DNA from: an uncultured Roseibacillus sp.
GTDB lineage: Bacteria; Verrucomicrobiota; Verrucomicrobiia; Verrucomicrobiales; Akkermansiaceae
Assembly (NCBI GenBank): GCA_937949965.1
Contig: CALFBF010000003.1
Span: 1 to 44,922 of the forward strand
Length of the DNA stretch: 44,922 nucleotides
Direction of reading: 5' to 3'
In this document: positions 24,485 through 37,346 of the stretch, in pieces
How the letters are laid out: each line of letters begins with the position of its first letter
How positions within the stretch are numbered: position 1 is the first letter of the stretch
Notes under the pieces: generated by a model
Databases searched by the model: none
Seen by the model: the letters and a program-made list of their open reading frames with translations, nothing else
Told to the model about the DNA's origin: nothing
Position numbers and translations under genes: made by a program

Positions 24485-27400
24485 CTATTCCTCGATAGGG
24501 TGATCTCGTAATAATTCATCCGGAGACCAGAAATCAGTTCGGGTTTTATATTTTTCGCGAACTTCCTTAACTTCTTCAGGTGTTATTACTGAAGCATTAT
24601 TTCCCCAACTCATCCGGACATAATTCAATACTGCAGCGATCTCCTGATCATTGAACATGCCTCCCAAGGGAGACATTGGCGGTGACTTGGGAGGGCCATA
24701 CTTGACACCATTGACTTCGATTTCTCCAAAAAGTCCGTGCAAGGTTAATTTGATCAAACGCTCCTTATCCCCGGTAACCCAGATACTATCGACAAGCGGA
24801 GGGTAGACTTCGGCCACCCCTTTTCCTGTTTCCAGATGACACGTCACGCAGGAACCTTCTTTCATAAAGACATTCCAACCCTCATTATAAAGAGCTCCAG
24901 ACATCTTCTTTTTCGATTGCTTCGTGCGGTAGCTTTTGTGGGTCGCTACTGCGGGCAATCGTCTGGACTTCAACTTTTCGAGTTTAACCGTAAGGGGGTA
25001 ATCTTTCTGAGATAAAAGTGCTTCCACATCTGAGCTCATTAGCTCCATTGCCGAATTCAAAGCGTTATTAATCCATTTTCCCGTTGGCTTTGAAGCAACC
25101 TCTAACAGTAGCTGCGCTCCTTCTTCCCCTCCCAACCAAGACGCTGCCGAGAGAGCTTCGAGACGCACTCGCGGATGCTCATGTTGAGCCGAGCTTGTGA
25201 GTAAACTACTGGCATCTTCGAAGAGATGGAGACTATGCCGTAAAACTCGAGTAGCACCGCTAGCAACTCGAAAATCTTTGGCCTGGAGACATTCTTGGAG
25301 TAATTCACGGTCAGGTTTTCCTTGCCCCCAAGTCGCCCAAAGCGCTTCTAACACTAAGCGCTCATCACTCTCATTTTTTTGCGCAAAAGTTTTTGCCGCA
25401 GCAATGACCTCATCCGAACTTCGTAAGCGGAGTTCTTGATGAGAACGCTTGCGAGCATTGAGCTCGGGTAGCTTTAAGTTCTCAAAAAGATGTTCTAAGC
25501 TAGCTCCTCTAATCTCGGGAGCCTCTACTAGAGGCCGCTTGGGATAGGTTATACGATAGATTCTTCCATACTCACTATTCCGAAGTGGATCACGAGCACT
25601 GTGCTGCATGTGTCCGATCAGAGTATTATGCCAGTCGATAAAGTAGAGCGAGCCGTCGGGGGCAACCTCAAGGTCACAAGGTCGAAAATTACCGTCACTA
25701 GATTGAATCAAGTTCTGGCGATGCTTTCCTTTCATCTCGGGGCCATCGTCCAACACATCATACTGTTTGATACCAAGAAAACCAATCGTATTAGCAACTA
25801 GATAATCCCCTTGCACCTCGTCCGGGAAATGACGCGAATGCAAGAACTCTGAGCCAGAAGTAGGTCTGACTTTATGTTCGTAATTAAAGACCCCTACTTT
25901 CTTCATCTCGCGTGAGTGGGGCATTTTAATTGAATAGCCGGCCATCCAAAGCTGGGTGCCACCGGAAGCATCATTAAGAATATTTTGCCCATATTCATCG
26001 TGAGCCACACCCCAAGGATTGGAGACATCAGTTTGCAGCACCCGTTCCACCTTCCAAGACTTGGGATCAAATCGCCACACGCCTCCATCGGTCATACGCT
26101 GAGGTCCCCACGGAGTTTCGACTTGGGAGTGAAGAAAGCGCCCCTCGGGAAGAAACAATCCTCCCCCATGATCAGTATCAAAAGAGCAAATCGCGTGGTG
26201 AGTATCATGTGAATCGAAACCATCTAACAAGTAATGCTTCTTGTCGGCACGGTCATCACCATCAAGGTCGTAGTGAATCGTTAAAAACGGTTCCTCTGAA
26301 ACGTAAACACCTCCGTCATTTGCAAAATCAAACCCTATTGGAGTATGGAGTTCTTCCGCAAAAATAGTCTCCTTATCAGCACGACCATCACCATTGGTGT
26401 CTTCGTAGATTAATAACTTATCATTCGGCAATGGTCCTCCTGGCTTGTAATGAGGATAGCTGGGAACGGTCGAGACCCAGAGCCGTCCTTTGGTGTCAAA
26501 ACGCATTTGCGCGGGATTGCCCAAGTTCGGGAAATCTGCTTCGGACGCAAACACGGAAACTTCATACCCCTCGGGTAGAGTGAATTTTTCGAGCGCAGTC
26601 TTCTCATCTACGTAGCTAGAAGAATTTGATTCCTCATCCGCTTTGTAATTCGTCGTGATAGGACTGAGCTTACGAGTGATCGAATCATCTACTACGAGAG
26701 AATCCGTCTCACCTTGTGCAATCTCCCAAATTTTCCGATCACGAAGCACAGTCATCTGGCGTATCTTCTCTATCTCCTCTGGGTAATTTACATTCCCAAA
26801 AGGAGCCCAACGTTGACCATAGACGTGGACGCCATTGAGCACGCGATAGTCATTACGCCACATCCAGTTCTTTTGGTAAACTGCCTGCTTCAGCAAAGAA
26901 TCTGAGGAATCATACGAAGATGATTTCTCAAAAAGAGAATTTACTAGAAACGGAGCAAGCGTTCGATAACCCTGTTCATCGAGATGGACTCCGTTAAGAG
27001 TAAGCGGTTCTTCTTGAGCTTGGGCATACCACTCGCGCGAGGGAGTGAACAAATCAATAAAGCCAATCTTCTTCTCACGTGCAACAGCCGCAACTGCATC
27101 CGCGTAGAGAGCAATTACCGCGTTCCTTTCCTCAGCGTCAGGGAGGTGAAAAGCAGGATGCTGTTCCATCGCCACTGGAGTTGCGAGAACAAGCCGTGGC
27201 GCCTCTTTTCCATTATAAGAACGCGAAAGAGTATGATCGGCAAAGGCCGCCAACTCACTTTGAAAATTCTTAACTCTGTCTGGCCCATCAAAAGACTCAT
27301 TAAATCCGAAAAAGGCGACAATAGTATCTGCTTTTAGAATCGTGAGCCATTCGTCCGGTTTAGGGTAATGTCCAATGCCGTGGTGTTTCAAAATTTCAGG

Positions 27401-27805
27401 ACGAAATTTCTTACCACCCTCAAAGGCCCACGGATCGGGATTCCCTGCTTCTGGGCGAAAGGATGGGGTGTGACCAGGAAACCCCATATTACGAAACGCA
27501 ATTTTTTTATCTGGAAAAGATTTATGCAGCAAGGTTTCAAAGTAACCGAAATGTTCCATCCGTTGAGAGAGACTATTTCCCAAGAAAACAATCGTTTCCC
27601 CTTCCTCAATTTGTAGCGGCAAAGTGGTTGGTTGAGCTGGTTCGGCTAACTCCTTAGGTTGCTTATAGCTTGGACGCTCTCGATCATTTTGCTGCGCTTC
27701 GATTGTTGTCAGAGTCGAGACAATTTCCGGCTCCTCAGAGAAGAGAATCGTAGGACTTAAAACAAGAGAAAGACTTATCCAAGGAAGGTTAAATTTAGAA
27801 GACAT
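24485..27805 (-). CDS. PVC-type SGNH hydrolase / beta-propeller / HEAT / cytochrome c fusion protein
   Basis: A 1,106-aa exported protein (signal peptide about 1-23) with four parts. An SGNH/GDSL-type domain carries [18 protein letters not shown] (Ser78) and [11 protein letters not shown] (Asp/His). A PVC membrane-bound-dehydrogenase-like propeller follows from about residue 400 ([77 protein letters not shown]). HEAT-like repeats come at about 790-920. A C-terminal monohaem cytochrome c has CVTCH (C986/C989/H990). The family is abundant in Planctomycetes/Verrucomicrobia and presumed to act on polysaccharides or sugars in the periplasm; the substrate is unknown. Confidence 0.88.
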   Translation of the reverse strand: [1106 protein letters not shown]

Positions 27806-27921: not shown

Positions 27922-29160
27922 CTAAAAAGTGAAGAGTGCGTTGAGCTTTTTCCGCAATTCTACAAAGCCATAATACTTTTGTCCAAGACGGTAGTTAGTC
28001 TCCGTCATCTCACGACGACGTGGTTCATCTCGCAAGAGAGCTTTCGTCTGCTGCACAAGTTCATCGGTCACGTAGCCATCTATTGTTAGAGTCTCAAAAC
28101 CCTTCGGTTCGATATCGTTCGCGAAGACCGAATAACGATTAACCACCACTGGTTTCCTGAAATAAAAAGCTTCTAACAAGGCATTCCCAAAGCCTTCATA
28201 AACACTCGGAAAAGTCACTATATCAGCATGAGGATAGATATCCCAAAGCGGGTAGACTTTTCGTCCCTGCTTGTCACGCTGCCGGTTCTCGCCAATCCGT
28301 TCGCTGACGAAACGCAGGTCTACCCCCTCCTCATCAGCCAAACGCTTGAGCATCTCCAAATAAGCAAACCCCTCATCACCAGCTTCATGAGAGATCACGA
28401 GCTTACAACGTGAGTCCTTTAACCGAGCTACAAGTGAAATTGCCATTTCAATCCCTTTCCGAGGAATGACACGAGTTGGCTGCAAAACGAAAGTATCGTC
28501 TTCAGCAAGACCGAGCTCACTTCTCACATCGGCATTATAATCATCAATTCCAGGCGACTCCTTCTCGAATTCGAAAACGTTGGGAATGACTTCTGAACTC
28601 ACTCCCTTGCGGCGAGCGAGTTCTTCCCCAGCCTGCCGATTGATCACGCTGTGTCGCAGATTCGGCAGACGAGGGGGAAAAGCCATGTCGAGGAAATCGG
28701 GCACCGCATTAGTGACAAAACGGTCACGCTCCCAGGAAAAATCATGATGATGAGCTACCGCTTTCATATTAGTCTCAGCGAGGAACTCCGTAATCGCAAT
28801 CCCTAGGGGAAGATGCACTGGGATGGCGAGGGTGTTCTCTAACACGAGAACGTCAATTTGGAAACGATCCACAAACCGCCGTAGCATCTCCTTCAAATAG
28901 CCTGCCAGGTCGTGAATGCGTTCGGTCACGATGGGATCGCGTCGAGTAACTCCCCAGATTCGTTGCCCCAACCAGACATTCTCGGGATGACCGAAAAACG
29001 CTTCAGGCACACACATTGAAATCTCATTAGGCCGATCACTCAAACCAGAAAACCAGAAAACCTCGGAACCCAGTTCGGCTAACACCTCAGCCCATTTGCG
29101 AGCTTCTAACGACACTCCATCGGTTCCAGCGAACCGGGTTGAAACGAATCCTAATTTCAT
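27922..29160 (-). CDS. GT4 glycosyltransferase, MggA-like (mannosylglucosyl-3-phosphoglycerate synthase candidate)
   Basis: A 412-aa GT-B retaining glycosyltransferase. It begins MKLGFVSTRFAGTDGVSLEARKW. It has AHHHDFSWERDRFV in the acceptor domain, TRVIPRKGIEMAI in the donor domain, and the E-x7-E-type region FPSVYEGFGNALLEAFYFRKPVVV. As I recall the family, this matches Petrotoga MggA, which adds mannose to glucosyl-3-phosphoglycerate, and a gpgS gene is 1.3 kb away. I prefer this start to an ATG at 29190 (10 residues more). The strong ribosome site at 29191-29198 is only 1 nt from that upstream ATG, whereas it fits a nine-codon ORF whose TGA overlaps this ATG. Confidence 0.72.
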   Translation of the reverse strand: MKLGFVSTRFAGTDGVSLEARKWAEVLAELGSEVFWFSGLSDRPNEISMCVPEAFFGHPENVWLGQRIWGVTRRDPIVTERIHDLAGYLKEMLRRFVDRFQIDVLVLENTLAIPVHLPLGIAITEFLAETNMKAVAHHHDFSWERDRFVTNAVPDFLDMAFPPRLPNLRHSVINRQAGEELARRKGVSSEVIPNVFEFEKESPGIDDYNADVRSELGLAEDDTFVLQPTRVIPRKGIEMAISLVARLKDSRCKLVISHEAGDEGFAYLEMLKRLADEEGVDLRFVSERIGENRQRDKQGRKVYPLWDIYPHADIVTFPSVYEGFGNALLEAFYFRKPVVVNRYSVFANDIEPKGFETLTIDGYVTDELVQQTKALLRDEPRRREMTETNYRLGQKYYGFVELRKKLNALFTF

Positions 29161-29186
29161 ACTGTCACAAAAAGGGCACGCATCAT
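29157..29186 (-). CDS. Candidate nine-codon leader ORF coupled to the MggA-like gene
   Basis: Reading MMRALFVTV then TGA, this mini-ORF lies 4-5 nt after the best Shine-Dalgarno in the window (GGGGAGGA). Its stop overlaps the downstream start as ATGA, the usual geometry for translational coupling. It may simply deliver ribosomes to the glycosyltransferase. No peptide function is claimed. Confidence 0.4.
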   Translation of the reverse strand: MMRALFVTV

Positions 29187-29190
29187 GCAT

Positions 29191-29313: not shown

Positions 29314-30465
29314 ATGCACACCCCGACCGAACTCCGCGACAAACTCCAAGCCCACCAAGAACTGGTCCTGGCTAATGCTCTCCTCCTTGGGGAATTCCCC
29401 TCACCATCAGGAGCGGAAAAAGATCGAATCGATTTCGTAGCGGAACGGTTCTCCTCACTGCAAGACGTCTCCATTGATGAACTGGGTAATCTGCAAGCAA
29501 TCATCCCCGGCAAGAATCCAAATTTCAATATCCTCATCGCAGTACACGCTGACACCTTGCTCACCCAGAAGCCTGAGCAACGAAATACGATCAACGTAGG
29601 ACCTGAGGGAATCACCGGACCAGGGATGGCGGACAACACCATCGGTCTCGCCGCCCTTGCCACCCTGCCAGATCTTCTCGAACGCTTGGGTATCGAACCG
29701 GAAGCAAACATTATCCTCCTCGCCCATACCAAATCTCAGAACAGCCACGATCTAGCAGGCCTGCGCTTTTTTCTCGATAACTTCAAACGTCCCATCCACG
29801 CCGGGTTCGTCCTCGAAGGCATCACCTTGGGTCGCCTCAACCACAGCTGTCTCGGCATGGTGCAAGGCGACATCATCTGCCGAGTTCATCAGGAACCGGG
29901 CACTCGCTGGGAAGCAGCGGAAAACGCGATGATCATCATGCACCGCATCATCAGTCGCATCCTCGCCATCCCCATTCCACAAGAACCTCGCACCTCGGTC
30001 ATTCTCGGTTCCTTACGGGCTGGAAAAACTTTCAATCGTCCTCCTGAGCTTGCGCGCTTAAAACTCGAAATCCGCTCCGAAGAACCGGGTAAGGCTAGGG
30101 AAATTCGCCACCAAATCTCCGATATCCTTGATGAAATTTCCTCCGAGACCGCTTCGGTTTGCGACATCACCTTCCCTGCCCTCAGGAGACCTGGCGGTAT
30201 TCCTTTTAATCATCCCCTTGTCTCGGCAGCGCGAGAGGTCCACCAAGAACTAGGAGTCAAGACCACGACCGGCCCGAGTTACTCCGATCTCTCCATTCTG
30301 ATTGAACACGATATTCCAGCGCTCACGCTCGGGCTCACCACGGCCACTAACCTCAACGAAGCAGACGAGACCGTTGCGCTTGAACCCTTGTTCACGGGCT
30401 TAGCTCAACTCGTGAGTATCCTCCAAAAAGCAGACCAACTGGAGTCCACACTCACTACCCAGTAA
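29314..30465 (+). CDS. M20/M28-fold peptidase-like protein with a degenerate active site
   Basis: A 383-aa protein with the M20-type peptidase fold. It retains AVHADTLL (His78, Asp80) and GPGMADNTIGLAAL (Asp107), as well as a possible third ligand Glu168 (VLEGITLGRLNH). The usual Glu-Glu catalytic/bridging motif is replaced by THTKSQNSHD-like sequence (LLAHTKSQNSHDLAG), and the final His (normally aHxxdE) is replaced by TNLNEADE. It may therefore not be an ordinary peptidase. It lies between two glucosylglycerate-type glycosyltransferases, 32 nt before gpgS, so the two are probably co-transcribed. The ATG start (Met8 of the longest frame, which begins with TTG) is preferred. Confidence 0.72.
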   Translation: MHTPTELRDKLQAHQELVLANALLLGEFPSPSGAEKDRIDFVAERFSSLQDVSIDELGNLQAIIPGKNPNFNILIAVHADTLLTQKPEQRNTINVGPEGITGPGMADNTIGLAALATLPDLLERLGIEPEANIILLAHTKSQNSHDLAGLRFFLDNFKRPIHAGFVLEGITLGRLNHSCLGMVQGDIICRVHQEPGTRWEAAENAMIIMHRIISRILAIPIPQEPRTSVILGSLRAGKTFNRPPELARLKLEIRSEEPGKAREIRHQISDILDEISSETASVCDITFPALRRPGGIPFNHPLVSAAREVHQELGVKTTTGPSYSDLSILIEHDIPALTLGLTTATNLNEADETVALEPLFTGLAQLVSILQKADQLESTLTTQ

Positions 30466-30497: not shown

Positions 30498-31463
30498 ATG
30501 TCTTGGCTCAAATCCAACACCTATCATCACTCCGACTTCGCGGACCTCGAAGCACTTTGTAAAAAGAAGAAAGAGAGTGGTCTCAAAATTTCCCTCTGCA
30601 TCCCTACTCTCAATGAGGAGGCGACCATTGGTAAGGTCGTCGTCATTCTGAAAAGTGAGCTCATGGACCGCTACCCACTCATCGATGAAATCGCGGTGAT
30701 TGATTCTGGTTCTACGGACCGCACGGGAGAAGTGGCCAAATCCTTCGGTGCAGAATTCTACTACTCAGGTGACATCATGCCCTCTACTGGCTTCAAGCGA
30801 GGTAAGGGGGAGAACCTTTGGAAAGCGATTCACCAACTCGAAGGTGACATCATCGCCTACGTGGATGCCGACATCGCCAACATTCACCCCCGCTTTGTCT
30901 ACGGATTGATTGGACCTCTGTTAGAGAAACCAGAAGTGAGCTACGTGAAGGCTTTTTACGAGCGCCCACTCGCCTTCTCACAGGGTATCCGACCAACGGG
31001 TGGAGGACGAGTTACGGAAATTCTAGTAAGACCCCTCTTTAGCCTCTTCTACCCCGACCTCACACAACTCTTCCAGCCTCTCTCAGGTGAGTATGCCGTT
31101 CGTCGTGAGACTTTGGAAAAGATTCCCTTCCCCATTGGCTACGGTGTGGAAACTTCTCATATCCTAGACGTTTACAAAGACGACGGAATGAAGGCTTTTG
31201 CGCAAGTAGACCTCGACCAACGGGTGCACCGCAATCAGGACACCAATGCTCTCGGGAAGATGTCCTTTGGTATTCTCCAAAGCTTCCTTGGCCGCCTGCA
31301 AGATCATGGCAAAGTAACGGACCTCGCCGAACTCTCTTCTGTCTATCGTTCCCTGCAAGCAACCGGAACGGAGTATGAACAAATCGAAAAAGAAATTCTC
31401 GAAGAAGAGCGCCCCCCGATTAACACCATTCCAGAATACTTGGAAAAGTATCCTCGTTCTTAG
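30498..31463 (+). CDS. gpgS: Glucosyl-3-phosphoglycerate synthase (GT81)
   Basis: A 321-aa GT-A glycosyltransferase that transfers glucose from a nucleotide sugar to 3-phosphoglycerate. Signatures are close to mycobacterial GpgS: SLCIPTLNEEATIG, EIAVIDSGSTDRTGEVA, metal-binding YVDADIANIHPRF (Asp123/Asp125), VKAFYERPL, GGGRVTEILVRPLF, LFQPLSGEYAVRRE, YGVETSHILDVY, and VHRNQDTNALGKMS (His244). It lacks the longer N- and C-termini of some actinobacterial members. The product is a precursor of glucosylglycerate, a compatible solute and, in mycobacteria, the primer of methylglucose lipopolysaccharide. It is the second gene after the M20-like gene. No Shine-Dalgarno is visible. Confidence 0.94.
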   Translation: MSWLKSNTYHHSDFADLEALCKKKKESGLKISLCIPTLNEEATIGKVVVILKSELMDRYPLIDEIAVIDSGSTDRTGEVAKSFGAEFYYSGDIMPSTGFKRGKGENLWKAIHQLEGDIIAYVDADIANIHPRFVYGLIGPLLEKPEVSYVKAFYERPLAFSQGIRPTGGGRVTEILVRPLFSLFYPDLTQLFQPLSGEYAVRRETLEKIPFPIGYGVETSHILDVYKDDGMKAFAQVDLDQRVHRNQDTNALGKMSFGILQSFLGRLQDHGKVTDLAELSSVYRSLQATGTEYEQIEKEILEEERPPINTIPEYLEKYPRS

Positions 31464-32095: not shown

Positions 32096-33403
32096 CTACT
32101 CTTCGTCGAGTCGGATTTGTAAATCCGAGAGTGCGTTCATGAAGTAAAGGTAGGCATCGTAGGCGCTGGGATAGGGTCGTAAACGCTCATGAAAAGCAGC
32201 TACTTCTCCGTCCTTCGTGCTCATGTAGTAAAAATGTTCTGCAGTCTGCATCTTCCGCCATTGATGAAGCAACTCGGGATTGTTTTTAGTCTTCACCGTA
32301 TCTTCAATCAGTAAGATTTTGCGATGAGCCTCGCCTTGCATCGCATTTCCTCCCCAAGCGGAAAGGTCTTTATCCAAATAAGCCCACGAAGTCGGCTCAT
32401 GACAATCATACTCCCCGGCCACTTCGAGAGCGGCTGCCACTTTACTAACAGTTAGAAAATTTCCAGCTAGCTCTTGCCAAGCTTGAGGCAGAGCACGGAA
32501 GAACTCAAAAATCCCAGTCTCCGCTCCCTGATGCTGACCGAGGCATTCGTAATCCATAAAAAGATTTATCACTTCACCGCCACTCCCTTGGCACCACTGC
32601 ACGAACTTTTGAGCGGTAAGAGGGTGCTCGGTCCAGTCGCGATCCCCAAAGCGAAAGGCGAGGTCGTCAGAGAGAATTCCATTGCGAAGATGAGTCTTAA
32701 GCTCTTTACAATTCGGCGAACGATAAAGACGATTTGCTTCCCGGCCAGCTAGAGGAAAGGCTACTGCTTCCGCAAGCATGGACTCAAACCCTAAATCTTC
32801 CACGCAGGTGGCTAAGGCATTGTAATAAACGCAAGCAGTGTGACGGAAGGCTTTAGGCTGAACTCCAAAAACTTCCTGAATTTTCGCCATCTGCTTCGCG
32901 ACTTGCTCCGAAAACTCGGTCTTACTGCTGCGGAAGTTCATCGAGTGGTAATAGGTCTCCGCCACGATCTCGACCCCACCAGTAGCATGTAACTTCTGAA
33001 AACTCGCCAGCACATCAGGACGGAAGTGCTCTAACTGCTCCAAGAGAACTCCACTCACCGAGAGGGAGAGCTGGAACTGCCCTGCCCCTTCCTCGATAAG
33101 CTCGGTGAAGAGTTGATTAGCGGGGAGGTAACAGGTCTCACAAGCTTCGTCTAACAGACTCTGATTTAACTCATCATCTTCGTAGAAAGGATCGTTCCCA
33201 ATATCAAAAAAGTCATAGGCTTTGAGACGATTAGGCTGGTGAGCCGCAAAAAAGAAACAAATGGGGGGAAGCTGGGGCCTGCTTGCTGATTTTTCTTCAC
33301 TCTGCTTTTGTGGCTCCTTCTTCGACTTTGGTGATTCGGAAACAGAATCCACCTGAGGATCTGGAACGAGAATTTTGCTCAACCGATTAAAAAAACGCTT
33401 CAT
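32096..33403 (-). CDS. GH57 family alpha-glucan hydrolase/transferase
   Basis: A 435-aa GH57 enzyme. After a charged, low-complexity N-terminal linker (about residues 12-45, Lys/Ser/Glu-rich), the catalytic domain begins with ICFFFAAHQPNRLKAYDFFDIG. It has CYLPANQLFTELI, the nucleophile Glu149 in GGVEIVAETYYHS and the acid Asp284 in LFMDYECLGQHQ. GH57 proteins include alpha-amylases, 4-alpha-glucanotransferases and branching enzymes; the compact size and motifs resemble the GH57 amylases that sit beside GT4 glucan synthases. It starts 8 nt after the GT4 stop, so they form an operon. No signal peptide is seen, so it is presumed cytoplasmic. Confidence 0.9.
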   Translation of the reverse strand: MKRFFNRLSKILVPDPQVDSVSESPKSKKEPQKQSEEKSASRPQLPPICFFFAAHQPNRLKAYDFFDIGNDPFYEDDELNQSLLDEACETCYLPANQLFTELIEEGAGQFQLSLSVSGVLLEQLEHFRPDVLASFQKLHATGGVEIVAETYYHSMNFRSSKTEFSEQVAKQMAKIQEVFGVQPKAFRHTACVYYNALATCVEDLGFESMLAEAVAFPLAGREANRLYRSPNCKELKTHLRNGILSDDLAFRFGDRDWTEHPLTAQKFVQWCQGSGGEVINLFMDYECLGQHQGAETGIFEFFRALPQAWQELAGNFLTVSKVAAALEVAGEYDCHEPTSWAYLDKDLSAWGGNAMQGEAHRKILLIEDTVKTKNNPELLHQWRKMQTAEHFYYMSTKDGEVAAFHERLRPYPSAYDAYLYFMNALSDLQIRLDEE

Positions 33404-33411
33404 GCTGGCTG

Positions 33412-34764
33412 TTAGTTATGAATTCCGAGTTGATCGCGGTAGAGTTCAACAATGCGAGCCGAAGCTGCTTCCCAAGTGCAATTTTTTTGATCTTCTAACG
33501 AAAATTTGACGGCTTCCTCATAAGCCTCTTCATCCCCAAGTAACTCGGTGATGTGTTGAGCCATCAAATCGACATCCCAGAAATCAGCTTTGCGAGCATG
33601 GGTCATAACCTCAGAGACACCCGACTGCTTAGAGAGCACCGCCGGGATACCATACTGAGCGGCCTCGATAGCAGAGAGACCAAAGGGTTCGCTCACCGAG
33701 GGCATGCAGTAGACATCGGTCATAGAGAGGAGTTTATTCACCTTCTCTTTGTTCAAAAAACCGGTGAAATGCAGACGATCGCCAACATCTTTGAAGGCAC
33801 CGTATTCAATAAGCTCGACCATCTTTTCCCCCGTTCCTGCCATCACAAAAACAACGTCGGGATTTTTTTCGAGAACTTTGGCCGCAATTTCGAGAAAAAA
33901 GCGTGGCCCTTTTTGACCAGTAAGACGACCAAGAAAGAGAACTAACCCTGCTTTGAAAGGACTCTTACTACGATAGGTTTCCACGGGATCAGCACCGTTG
34001 TGAACGAAATGCACTTTCCCTGCATCAATCCCGTAATGGTCGATACAAATGCTACCAGTGTAACGACTAACCGGAATCACCAAATCGGCAACAGTCATCG
34101 CCTCGCGCTCGATGTCGTAAATCCAGCCCCGCGAATCTGGGCCTCCCCGGTCGTAATTGAGAGAATGGACATGGAGCACGAGAGGCTTTCCGGTGCGCCT
34201 CTTAATCTCCAGTCCCGCGACAAAAGTCATCCAGTCGTGAGCATGAACAATATCAAAGTCCATGTCTTCAGCCAAAGAAGCGGCGACTTGAGCATAGGCC
34301 CAAACTCGTTCTCCCACATCATCGCCATAGAGCGTGCCATCATTGAAAATAGCGAGACGTTCATCGAGACCAACGGCCTTGAGGCGATCGATGATCTTCT
34401 CTCCAGCAAGAGCTTTTTTATCTCTTTCGACACGGTATTGGTCCATCTCTCGATGACCTGGAGCGCGCTCTACTTCTTCACTCTGGTAAGGAAAGAGCCG
34501 TTGCGTGACCTCTCCTTCAATCCACTTCACATTGGTAAAATCGGCGAGACTTTTCTCCACCCCTTCTCGGTCAACAGAACGTTCATTGAGATCGTTCAAG
34601 CCAATCAGTTCCAGCTGCTCAACCAGAAAGGAAGGATCCACTTTGGGTAAAATGAAGCTTAACTCAACCTGCTGAGCCATCGCCCGCCCGAGTCCCAAAC
34701 AAGCAATTCCGAGACCGCCATTAATCAAGGGGGGAAATTCCCAGCCCAGCATCAGTACTTTCAT
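33412..34764 (-). CDS. GT4 alpha-glucan synthase-like glycosyltransferase (glycogen synthase/Rv3032 type)
   Basis: A 450-aa GT-B glycosyltransferase. MKVLMLGWEFPPLINGGLGIACLGLGRAM is the WE(F/Y)PP...GGLG start of glucan synthases; DIVHAHDWMTFVAG, VHNGADP, LFLGRLTGQKGPRFFLE and PSVSEPFGLSAIEAAQYGIPAVLS (E-x7-E) follow. This pattern is shared by bacterial GT4 glycogen synthases and mycobacterial Rv3032. I placed the start at the ATG at 34764 because AAGGGA precedes it at good spacing; an extension to 34815 adds 17 unlikely residues. It pairs with GH57 downstream and is divergent from the GH31 gene. Confidence 0.88.
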   Translation of the reverse strand: MKVLMLGWEFPPLINGGLGIACLGLGRAMAQQVELSFILPKVDPSFLVEQLELIGLNDLNERSVDREGVEKSLADFTNVKWIEGEVTQRLFPYQSEEVERAPGHREMDQYRVERDKKALAGEKIIDRLKAVGLDERLAIFNDGTLYGDDVGERVWAYAQVAASLAEDMDFDIVHAHDWMTFVAGLEIKRRTGKPLVLHVHSLNYDRGGPDSRGWIYDIEREAMTVADLVIPVSRYTGSICIDHYGIDAGKVHFVHNGADPVETYRSKSPFKAGLVLFLGRLTGQKGPRFFLEIAAKVLEKNPDVVFVMAGTGEKMVELIEYGAFKDVGDRLHFTGFLNKEKVNKLLSMTDVYCMPSVSEPFGLSAIEAAQYGIPAVLSKQSGVSEVMTHARKADFWDVDLMAQHITELLGDEEAYEEAVKFSLEDQKNCTWEAASARIVELYRDQLGIHN

Positions 34765-34913
34765 AGTTCCCTTGTCCTCAATGATGTGCAGATTCCACAC
34801 CAGCAGCCTAGTCAAAAGTTATTTTTTGAAAATATCTCTTACGCTAACTGACAAACCCCATGTCTCCTCGACACTGGCTCCCAGCCTGCTAATGCCATAG
34901 GTCTTCCGCTAAA

Positions 34914-37346
34914 ATGAGTGATAATCACGATGCCCAATCCGACGAGTCTAACACCTTCGACAAAGAGAACTACATGGACTCTGCGAAGAAACTGCGTGCA
35001 GAGGATCTTTTTCCTGGAAAGGTCATCAAAACGGAGCAAGAAAACCTTCGGGCAATCCTAACTTGTGACAATCGGGTCAAACTTGCGATTACTGCGCTGA
35101 GTGAGGAAGTGATCCACCTGCAGTACGCGCCTGACGGATATCTCTCTGACAATTTTTCTTATGCGGCTCTCCCCAAAAACTTCCCGAGCCGCAAAGCGCC
35201 AGAGTTCATCGAATCAGAAGAAAGCATTTCCTTTGTAACGGAAGCGTTGCAAGTAGAGATTTCTAACAACGGGCTCGCGCTTAAGATCTCAGACGCGGAC
35301 GGTCAGCTCATGAGCGAAGACGAAAAAGGATTCCATTGGGAGCCCAACGAAATCTTTGGTGGTAATATCGTGCAATACTCGAGGCGCATCCAAAGTGATG
35401 AACTCTTCTATGGCCTCGGGGACAAGTCCTGTCATTCCGAACTGAGCGGTCGTCGCTTCGAGCTCTGGGGCTCGGATACCTATGCCTACGGCTCGGAGAC
35501 CGATCCACTCTATAAGAACATTCCCTTTTTCATCGGGATTCACAACGACCGGGCCTACGGAATCTTCTTTGATAATAGTCATCGATCTTTCTTCGATTTT
35601 GGAAAAGAGCGGAAAACCACCTCTTCCTTTTGGGCGCAAGGAGGACAGATGAATTTCTACTACCTACACGGTCCCAGCGTTGCGGAGGTTGTGCGCCGTT
35701 TTGCTCAACTAACAGGTGTCCCCGAACTCCCGCCCCTCTGGGCCCTTGGTTTTCATCAATGCAAGTGGTCATACCGCACTGAGAAAGAGGTCACCGATCT
35801 TGCAGCGGGCTTCATCGAGCATCAAATTCCTTGTGATGCCCTCTATGTGGACATTGATTATATGGATGGTTTTCGCTGCTTCACTTGGAATCTAACATCC
35901 TTTCCCAAACCCGGAGAAATGATCCGAACGCTAGAGGAAAAAGGGTTCAAGACGGTCGCAATCATCGACCCCGGCATCAAGGTTGACCCCGGATATTCGG
36001 TCTATGACGAAGGGATTGCGGGAGACCACTTCTGTCGCCAGATGGATGGGGATGTTTACACGGGGCAAGTGTGGCCCGGTGACTGTCATTTTCCGGATTT
36101 CACGAAACCTTCGGTCAGAGATTGGTGGGCCGGGTTGTTCGGCGGACTGATCGAAGAGAACGGTATCGCGGGTATCTGGAACGACATGAATGAGCCTGCT
36201 GACTTCAATGACGATAAGACCTTTCCGAATCATATCCGACACGATTACGACGGCCATCCCTGCTCCCACCGGCAAGCGCACAATGTCTATGGCACGCAGA
36301 TGATCCGAGCGACCCGAGACGGGCTCACTCGTTTCAACAATGGTAAACGACCCTTCGCGATCACGCGTTCAGCCTACGCAGGAGCTTGGCGATATGCCTC
36401 CGCTTGGACCGGTGACAACATCTCGTCTTGGGAGCACCTCAAAATCGCGAACACGCAATGCCAACGGCTGAACCTCTCAGGCTATAGCTTCGTGGGATCT
36501 GATATCGGAGGGTTCCTGGAGCAAACAGATGGTGAGCTTTTCACCCGCTGGATTCAACTCGGCGTCTTCCACCCCTTCTGCCGCGTCCACTCCTCGGGCG
36601 AACATGGGGACCAAGAACCGTGGTCCTTTGGCGAGCCCTATACGGGCATTGTTAGAAAATTCCTCGAACTTCGCTACCAACTGCTCCCGTATTTTTACAC
36701 CGTCTTCCGCCAACATATTGAGACGGGCGACCCGATGTTGCGCCCCCTCATCTATCACGATCACACCGATCATGAGACCTTCCACCGCGCGGAGGAATTC
36801 TCTATCGGCGATCACCTCTTCGTCTGCCCTATTTCGGAAAAAGGAAGCACCAGCCGCCAACTCTACCTCACCACCGGACAGTATTACAACTACTGGACTG
36901 AGGAGCTGATAGAGGGAGGAAAAGAGTTCACCTGCGAGGCCTCTCTCGAACAAACTCCCCTCTTCGTTCGCGCTGGGGCCGTGATTCCGATGGACCCCGT
37001 GCGGCAGTATTCTTGGCAAGAAGCGGAAGATCCTCAGGTCTATCATTTCTACCTCCCTACCAAGCAATCGACTCCGATCCACTCACAACTCTACCTCGAT
37101 TCTGGCGATCACTATGATCACCTCGAAGGTCATTACGTTCTCGTCAAATTCGCCGCAGAGAAAGTGGATGAAACTACGATCACTCTCACTATTTCCCGAG
37201 AAGGTAGGCACCCTCTCCCTCCCACTCTCTTGCAAATTCACAGTAGCGAGAACTACCGTGAAGTGAGTATCGATGGCCAAAGCCAAGCCCTCACTGAAGC
37301 GCTTGAAATCGCTCCAGACATGAAAGAGATTCGCATCAAAATCTAA
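34914..37346 (+). CDS. GH31 alpha-glucosidase
   Basis: An 810-aa glycoside hydrolase family 31 enzyme. Motifs: FYGLGDKSCHSELSGRRFELWGSDTYAYG, GFHQCKWSYRTEKEV, ALYVDIDYMDGFRCFTW, nucleophile Asp424 in IWNDMNEPADF, acid/base Asp501 in ASAWTGDNISSWEHLK, and FVGSDIGGF...FTRWIQLGVFHPFCRVHSS. It hydrolyses terminal alpha-glucosidic bonds of oligosaccharides. No signal peptide is visible, so it is probably cytoplasmic. Met21 (MDSAKKLRAEDLFPG) is an alternative start. It is divergent from the GT4/GH57 pair, across 149 bp. Its TAA lies inside a TCTAAC hexamer and overlaps the stop of the convergent giant gene. Confidence 0.95.
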   Translation: MSDNHDAQSDESNTFDKENYMDSAKKLRAEDLFPGKVIKTEQENLRAILTCDNRVKLAITALSEEVIHLQYAPDGYLSDNFSYAALPKNFPSRKAPEFIESEESISFVTEALQVEISNNGLALKISDADGQLMSEDEKGFHWEPNEIFGGNIVQYSRRIQSDELFYGLGDKSCHSELSGRRFELWGSDTYAYGSETDPLYKNIPFFIGIHNDRAYGIFFDNSHRSFFDFGKERKTTSSFWAQGGQMNFYYLHGPSVAEVVRRFAQLTGVPELPPLWALGFHQCKWSYRTEKEVTDLAAGFIEHQIPCDALYVDIDYMDGFRCFTWNLTSFPKPGEMIRTLEEKGFKTVAIIDPGIKVDPGYSVYDEGIAGDHFCRQMDGDVYTGQVWPGDCHFPDFTKPSVRDWWAGLFGGLIEENGIAGIWNDMNEPADFNDDKTFPNHIRHDYDGHPCSHRQAHNVYGTQMIRATRDGLTRFNNGKRPFAITRSAYAGAWRYASAWTGDNISSWEHLKIANTQCQRLNLSGYSFVGSDIGGFLEQTDGELFTRWIQLGVFHPFCRVHSSGEHGDQEPWSFGEPYTGIVRKFLELRYQLLPYFYTVFRQHIETGDPMLRPLIYHDHTDHETFHRAEEFSIGDHLFVCPISEKGSTSRQLYLTTGQYYNYWTEELIEGGKEFTCEASLEQTPLFVRAGAVIPMDPVRQYSWQEAEDPQVYHFYLPTKQSTPIHSQLYLDSGDHYDHLEGHYVLVKFAAEKVDETTITLTISREGRHPLPPTLLQIHSSENYREVSIDGQSQALTEALEIAPDMKEIRIKI

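Follow-up and report, generated by a model that had tools for sequence, protein, structure and literature searches.

A Putative M20 Pseudo-Hydrolase Encoded Directly Upstream of gpgS in Verrucomicrobiota

Introduction

Why should a protein with the fold of an M20 hydrolase, but with much of the M20 active site replaced, be encoded directly ahead of the gene for glucosyl-3-phosphoglycerate synthase (GpgS)? The question is raised by the window, as we call the whole stretch of DNA analysed here (44,922 nucleotides). It is contig C3 in the 2.7 Mb genome of an uncultured Roseibacillus sp.; among named species, Roseibacillus persicicus (87% identity) and R. ishigakijimensis (82%) come closest. Three of its genes are central to what follows:

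29314..30465 (stop codon included), + strand: M20L, a putative M20-fold pseudo-hydrolase of 383 aa (translation, Pfam, profile match)
30498..31463, + strand: gpgS, glucosyl-3-phosphoglycerate synthase, following M20L after 32 nt (PRK13915)
27922..29190, - strand: divergent GT4 glycosyltransferase, mannosylglucosylglycerate (MGG) synthase-like (NF041101)

A sequence-only reading had described M20L as lying between two glucosylglycerate-type enzymes and co-oriented with gpgS, and this setting holds, with the MGG-synthase-like GT4 gene on the left and gpgS on the right. The GpgS assignment is firm (381 bits against PRK13915, over the cut-off of 262). The GT4 product scores 234.8 bits against NF041101, below the cut-off of 640, and is thus named here as a relative, its identity as the same enzyme not being established.

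Results and Discussion

Fold and Homologues of M20L

The M20L frame is uninterrupted over its 383 codons, and its product passes the Pfam cut-offs of Peptidase_M20, M20_dimer and Peptidase_M28 (30.4 bits against PF01546, cut-off 24.6; 26.8 bits against PF07687, cut-off 21), so that both the catalytic and the lid-domain profiles place it in the M20 family. By sequence, its best solved relative is 7ljh (E 2.7e-18 alone, 1.6e-48 with a family profile). A single-chain model built from only three close sequences was poor (mean pLDDT 50.4), and the 50 Foldseek matches listed for it resemble M20-type entries. Within the genus M20L evidently evolves under purifying selection, with dN/dS of 0.035-0.092 at dS values of 1.2-2.7, i.e. 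near saturation.

Whole-genome searches covered Verrucomicrobiota. In overlapping draws of 145 family, 288 order, 335 class and 337 phylum genomes, matches occurred in 7, 42, 19 and 53 genomes, respectively, and 90 close homologues were detected across the phylum. Counting identical sequences once, we read 81 distinct homologues, leaving out those of G171, G231, G224, G228, G298, G211, G315, G296 and G300 (fragment). Ten distant M20 proteins, scoring 39-71 bits, served as the comparison set; no sequence among those read fell between 158 and 71 bits. Beyond these searches, a genome-contig scan with narrow patterns returned two Roseibacillus loci, scans of viral contigs led nowhere, and a plasmid scan gave 18 records, with 22.9-26.0% identity among the 10 matches listed.

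Active-Site Residues in the Window Protein

The EE site was placed by the family-profile alignment to 7ljh, which is gap-free there (VGEEG in 7ljh), and Glu168 was recognised as the third zinc-1 ligand by comparison with DapE. The positions concerned are as follows:

29545..29547, + strand: His78 codon, zinc-1 ligand position, kept (69/81 homologues)
29551..29553, + strand: Asp80 codon, kept (81/81)
29632..29634, + strand: Asp107 codon, bridging ligand position, kept (Asp in 76/81, Glu in 4, Asn in 1)
29734..29739, + strand: Ser141-Gln142, where the catalytic-base Glu and zinc-2 Glu would stand (alignment)
29815..29817, + strand: Glu168 codon (LEG), zinc-1 ligand position, kept (Glu in 72/81, Asp in 1)
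30355..30357, + strand: Asn348 codon, at the zinc-2 His position (41/81 have His)

We take the first Glu of the EE pair to be the catalytic base, and Asp80 is presumably not a zinc ligand itself. Because His78, Asp107 and Glu168 are all kept, the zinc-1 triad is complete and zinc site 1 is intact in the window protein. The catalytic base is missing, and of zinc site 2 only the shared Asp is left. Measured against a dizinc hydrolase, M20L has the zinc-1 ligands and lacks the Glu-Glu pair, the zinc-2 His and the lid-domain His that binds substrate. In DapE, the accessible text of PMC4012986 gives H68, D101 and E164 as ligands of Zn1 and E136 and H239 as those of Zn2, with D101 bridging. From the residues present in M20L, we strongly infer that it has lost the M20 mechanism of hydrolysis.

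The sequence-only reading had also reported an M20 fold without the Glu-Glu motif, which the alignment bears out. It had rightly listed His78, Asp80 and Asp107 as kept, but its description of all three as metal ligands presumably fails for Asp80, and it missed Glu168. The loss of the last His that it noted is real in the window and yet not universal among homologues.

Conservation and Order of Losses

An acid (Asp or Glu) stands at either EE position in none of the 81 clade members, against an intact EE in all ten distant relatives; homologues with EE, which the earlier reading had named as evidence that would count against it, are thus not found among the 81, and the loss of EE is shared by 81/81, that of the last His by 40/81. 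Residue 141 is Ser in 67, Gly in 5, Tyr in 4, Met in 3, Phe in 1 and Ala in 1; residue 142 is mostly Leu (43) or Phe (21). Eight residues are invariant (E35, R45, D55, D80, G149, P335, G340 and G362). The most constrained clade-specific ones are R45 (81 of 81), Q365 (80), P301 (79) and H300 (78), each common to at most two of the ten relatives and none of them a metal ligand.

In a tree of the 81 sequences with four distant EE-bearing ones, a branch with 100% SH-aLRT support sets the 81 apart, although this was a quick tree with several long branches. A single early loss of EE would be the simplest account. The zinc ligands were lost later and piecemeal: the zinc-1 triad is complete in 63/81 and incomplete in 18/81 (four changes at the fewest), and the last His, kept in 41/81, requires at least five changes. 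It looks as if the fold has been retained for a purpose other than metal hydrolysis. Counter-evidence to such a non-metal role is the intact zinc-1 site of the 63 homologues, which counts against a mere scaffold, since a scaffold would not need the triad.

Pairing with gpgS

A same-strand gpgS lies downstream of M20L in 54/54 wide loci and 27/27 short loci (81/81 in total); at L010 the gene caller places a small ORF in the gap. With start sites chosen by script, the two frames overlap in 37/54 loci, the distance from stop to start being -17 to -4 nt there as compared to 32 nt in the window. Near the distant EE relatives, gpgS was found in 0/9 flanks of 4-20 kb, the tenth (L055) being left out.

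The M20L and GpgS phylum draws were treated as one because they share handles and genome number. Among these 337 genomes, GpgS exceeded its cut-off in 60 and M20L was present in 46, and all 46 fall within the 60, with 14-314 nt from match to match in 46/46. Throughout Verrucomicrobiota the pairing of M20L with gpgS holds without a break. We give no simple probability for this co-occurrence, which would be meaningless given the relatedness of the genomes. Distance correlations were ambiguous as to the partner, at 0.62 for M20L and GpgS given GT4, and 0.48 for M20L and GT4 given GpgS. One genome of the window's own genus (G011, 97% completeness) is without M20L and without GpgS, which is consistent with joint gain or loss.

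GpgS Lineages With and Without M20L

In the GpgS tree, M20L-linked sequences fall in one clade (98/97 support) made up of 54 linked sequences and one unlinked sequence, L138. The end branch of L138 measures 0.82 against a median of 0.16, around five times the median, as if released from a constraint.

M20L is absent from 14 of the 60 GpgS-bearing genomes, so it is not required for GpgS chemistry. The GpgS of these genomes lies mostly outside the linked clade, and M20L accordingly accompanies one GpgS lineage. A search of the 14 gpgS loci with the M20 profile gave no match; a GT480-type gene occurs in 9/14 and a HAD-type gene in 6/14.

Trp3 of GpgS is present in 54/54 linked and 1/14 unlinked sequences. 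We rejected it as proof of docking because the M20L label changes only twice on the tree and the solved 3f1y enzyme also has Trp3.

Six of the 14 loci that lack M20L share a homologous gene upstream of gpgS, whose product has an Hsp33 C-terminal domain (3-12 nt at L133, L134, L135 and L137; 112 nt at L143; 861 nt at L146). The domain, PF01430, scored 28.6 bits and was tested on L143 only; the gene is absent from the M20L loci searched. Its product is possibly a chaperone in place of M20L.

Neighbourhood and Pathway Setting

An MGG-synthase-like GT4 gene lies near M20L-gpgS in 41/54 loci, five of these being weak and co-directional. In the typical cluster elsewhere, GH13 and MGG-synthase-like GT4 genes stand beside M20L-gpgS, followed by a GT4-type gene (about 430-490 aa) and, in 28/54 loci, by a HAD-type protein. 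The window genome carries the GT4-type gene unlinked, on contig C160, and a HAD query gave no match in this genome and two congeners, in a search run without a positive control. Since the HAD-type protein shares the cluster in those 28 loci, we rejected M20L as the missing pathway phosphatase. A GH13 protein resembling sucrose phosphorylase, about 578 aa long, was also observed near the cluster in 20/54 loci (L013, 8740-10521; L098, 6212-7939; and 18 others); it is perhaps a glucosylglycerate phosphorylase.

Most likely, these genes belong to the synthesis of the osmolytes glucosylglycerate or MGG, a pathway whose enzymes are GpgS, MggA/MggS and a phosphatase. Those for MGG in Rhodopirellula baltica, phosphatase included, have reportedly been studied. 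MGG accumulation in R. baltica is documented in the accessible text of PMC3694870.

Two further features of the window were noted. Genes for a GH57 protein, a glycogen-synthase-like GT4 and a GH31 protein lie together beside gpgS at 32096-37346. Of the loci searched with GH57, GT4 and GH31 queries, the window alone gave matches, and a link of M20L with these glucan genes was rejected. Together with GpgS they presumably resemble the mycobacterial methylglucose lipopolysaccharide genes. At 24485-27805, a 1106-aa protein combines a GDSL-lipase-like domain, a DUF7133/PVC-type haem-binding domain, HEAT repeats and cytochrome c.

Possible Roles of M20L

A zinc-peptidase-like protein that lacks the cleaving residues stands directly before gpgS phylum-wide, and it therefore probably helps or controls GpgS. 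We give an even chance to the view that M20L is an ancient M20 pseudo-hydrolase, fixed early, that acts, without catalysis of its own, as an obligate partner of one GpgS clade, whether as a regulatory, stabilising or assembly subunit. The gene order is such that M20L may be made just ahead of GpgS in a coupled manner. M20L presumably no longer hydrolyses anything, would bind GpgS and, more speculatively, might stabilise or tune it, perhaps in response to a small carboxylate, such as 3-phosphoglycerate or glucosylglycerate, that it senses in the former substrate cleft. Only tentatively do we go further and suggest that GpgS of the linked clade could be a two-component enzyme, in which the M20L subunit senses a carboxylate metabolite in its dead cleft and switches osmolyte synthesis.

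The sequence-only reading had proposed that the fold was repurposed, and the clade-wide fixation of EE loss together with the constant gpgS neighbour supports a repurposing tied to gpgS. It left the choice between a binding protein, which is possible, and a hydrolase or transferase with different chemistry for sugar-acid esters or amides, which finds no support; a binding or regulatory partner is more likely than new hydrolytic chemistry. An enzymatic alternative would have M20L work on a glucosylglycerate intermediate or derivative with a single zinc-1 site and new residues, a parallel being the glutaminyl cyclases, in which the related M28 fold is reused with one zinc. The widely kept triad, Ser at the base position in 67/81, the invariant Asp80 and Asn108 (76/81, with Asp there in all ten relatives) would all suit such an enzyme. 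However, the triad breaks down in 18/81 through at least four changes without gpgS synteny ever breaking, Ser141 is lost in 14/81 through seven changes, and the phosphatase step has a HAD-type candidate in 28/54 loci. The substrate-binding lid His (GHS), present in 10/10 relatives, is also gone from all 81 clade members, although the loop alignment is loose, and Asn241, likewise in 10/10 relatives, is found in only 46/81. We therefore consider such an enzyme unlikely.

The state of the lid His and of Asn241 also weighs on the idea that M20L is a free-standing ligand binder or metabolite sensor, for instance of 3-phosphoglycerate or glucosylglycerate, without contact to GpgS. M20 lid domains hold substrate carboxylates, and Arg254 of this domain is kept in 74/81. 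Nevertheless, a free sensor would have no need to adjoin gpgS, as M20L does at every one of the 81 loci, and we regard this idea as more doubtful still.

Overall M20 homology is good, as the profile match to 7ljh indicates, and Glu352 is kept in 74/81, so one may ask whether M20L still works as a hydrolase, with acids from another part of the chain standing in for the missing ones, the outcome that the earlier reading had recognised as fatal to its own proposal. The alignment offers no acid nearby to replace the EE pair: Asp146 is Asp or Asn in the clade and in EE-bearing relatives alike, and the only clade-specific conserved acid, Asp374, lies near the C-terminus. A working hydrolase of this kind is very improbable. 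Finally, the lost catalytic residues might be expected of a decaying or mis-called gene, but the open frame in all 81 homologues, the low (if near-saturated) dN/dS in the genus and the phylum-wide invariant residues make this almost certainly wrong.

Significance and Comparison With Known Systems

M20L genes probably carry M20 hydrolase or peptidase annotations, and reconstructions of peptide or osmolyte metabolism in Verrucomicrobiota would be misled by them. If M20L is indeed a GpgS partner, a control component would be added to the synthesis of glucosylglycerate, a solute tied to salt and nitrogen stress in other bacteria, and M20L would represent a bacterial pseudoenzyme with a traceable order of loss (base first, metal ligands later). 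Searches by text terms in the accessible literature on GpgS, MGG and M20 pseudoenzymes (including PMC11009771, PMC2674218, PMC12057145 and PMC11266112) found neither an M20 member of the glucosylglycerate/MGG pathway nor an M20L-GpgS pair.

The closest solved systems are 7ljh and 7lji, structures of an M20-family poly(aspartic acid) hydrolase, which have the catalytic and lid-domain layout and the zinc-1 ligand positions in common with M20L. By alignment, 7ljh retains both Glu residues of the pair as well as the last His, whereas M20L lacks them and is tied to gpgS. The M20 dizinc hydrolases DapE, ArgE and carboxypeptidase G2 are weaker sequence relatives, and M20L falls far under the NCBIfam cut-offs of dizinc enzymes (dapE, 36.6 against 304 bits). 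H68, D101 and E164 of DapE, as given in the accessible text of PMC4012986, correspond to H78, D107 and E168 of M20L; unlike the DapE-type enzymes, however, M20L is missing the zinc-2 ligands and the base.

A further parallel comes from the inactive metallopeptidase homologues, which in the accessible text of a 2024 pseudopeptidase review (PMC11266112) keep the fold, have lost catalytic residues and are presumed to act in protein-protein contacts. The M20 family as such did not turn up in that text, its two "M20" strings being fragments of reference numbers in the bibliography. M20L is like these pseudopeptidases in having kept the fold with catalytic residues gone. With the MGG/glucosylglycerate osmolyte pathway it has its neighbours in common, namely gpgS and an MGG-synthase-like GT4.
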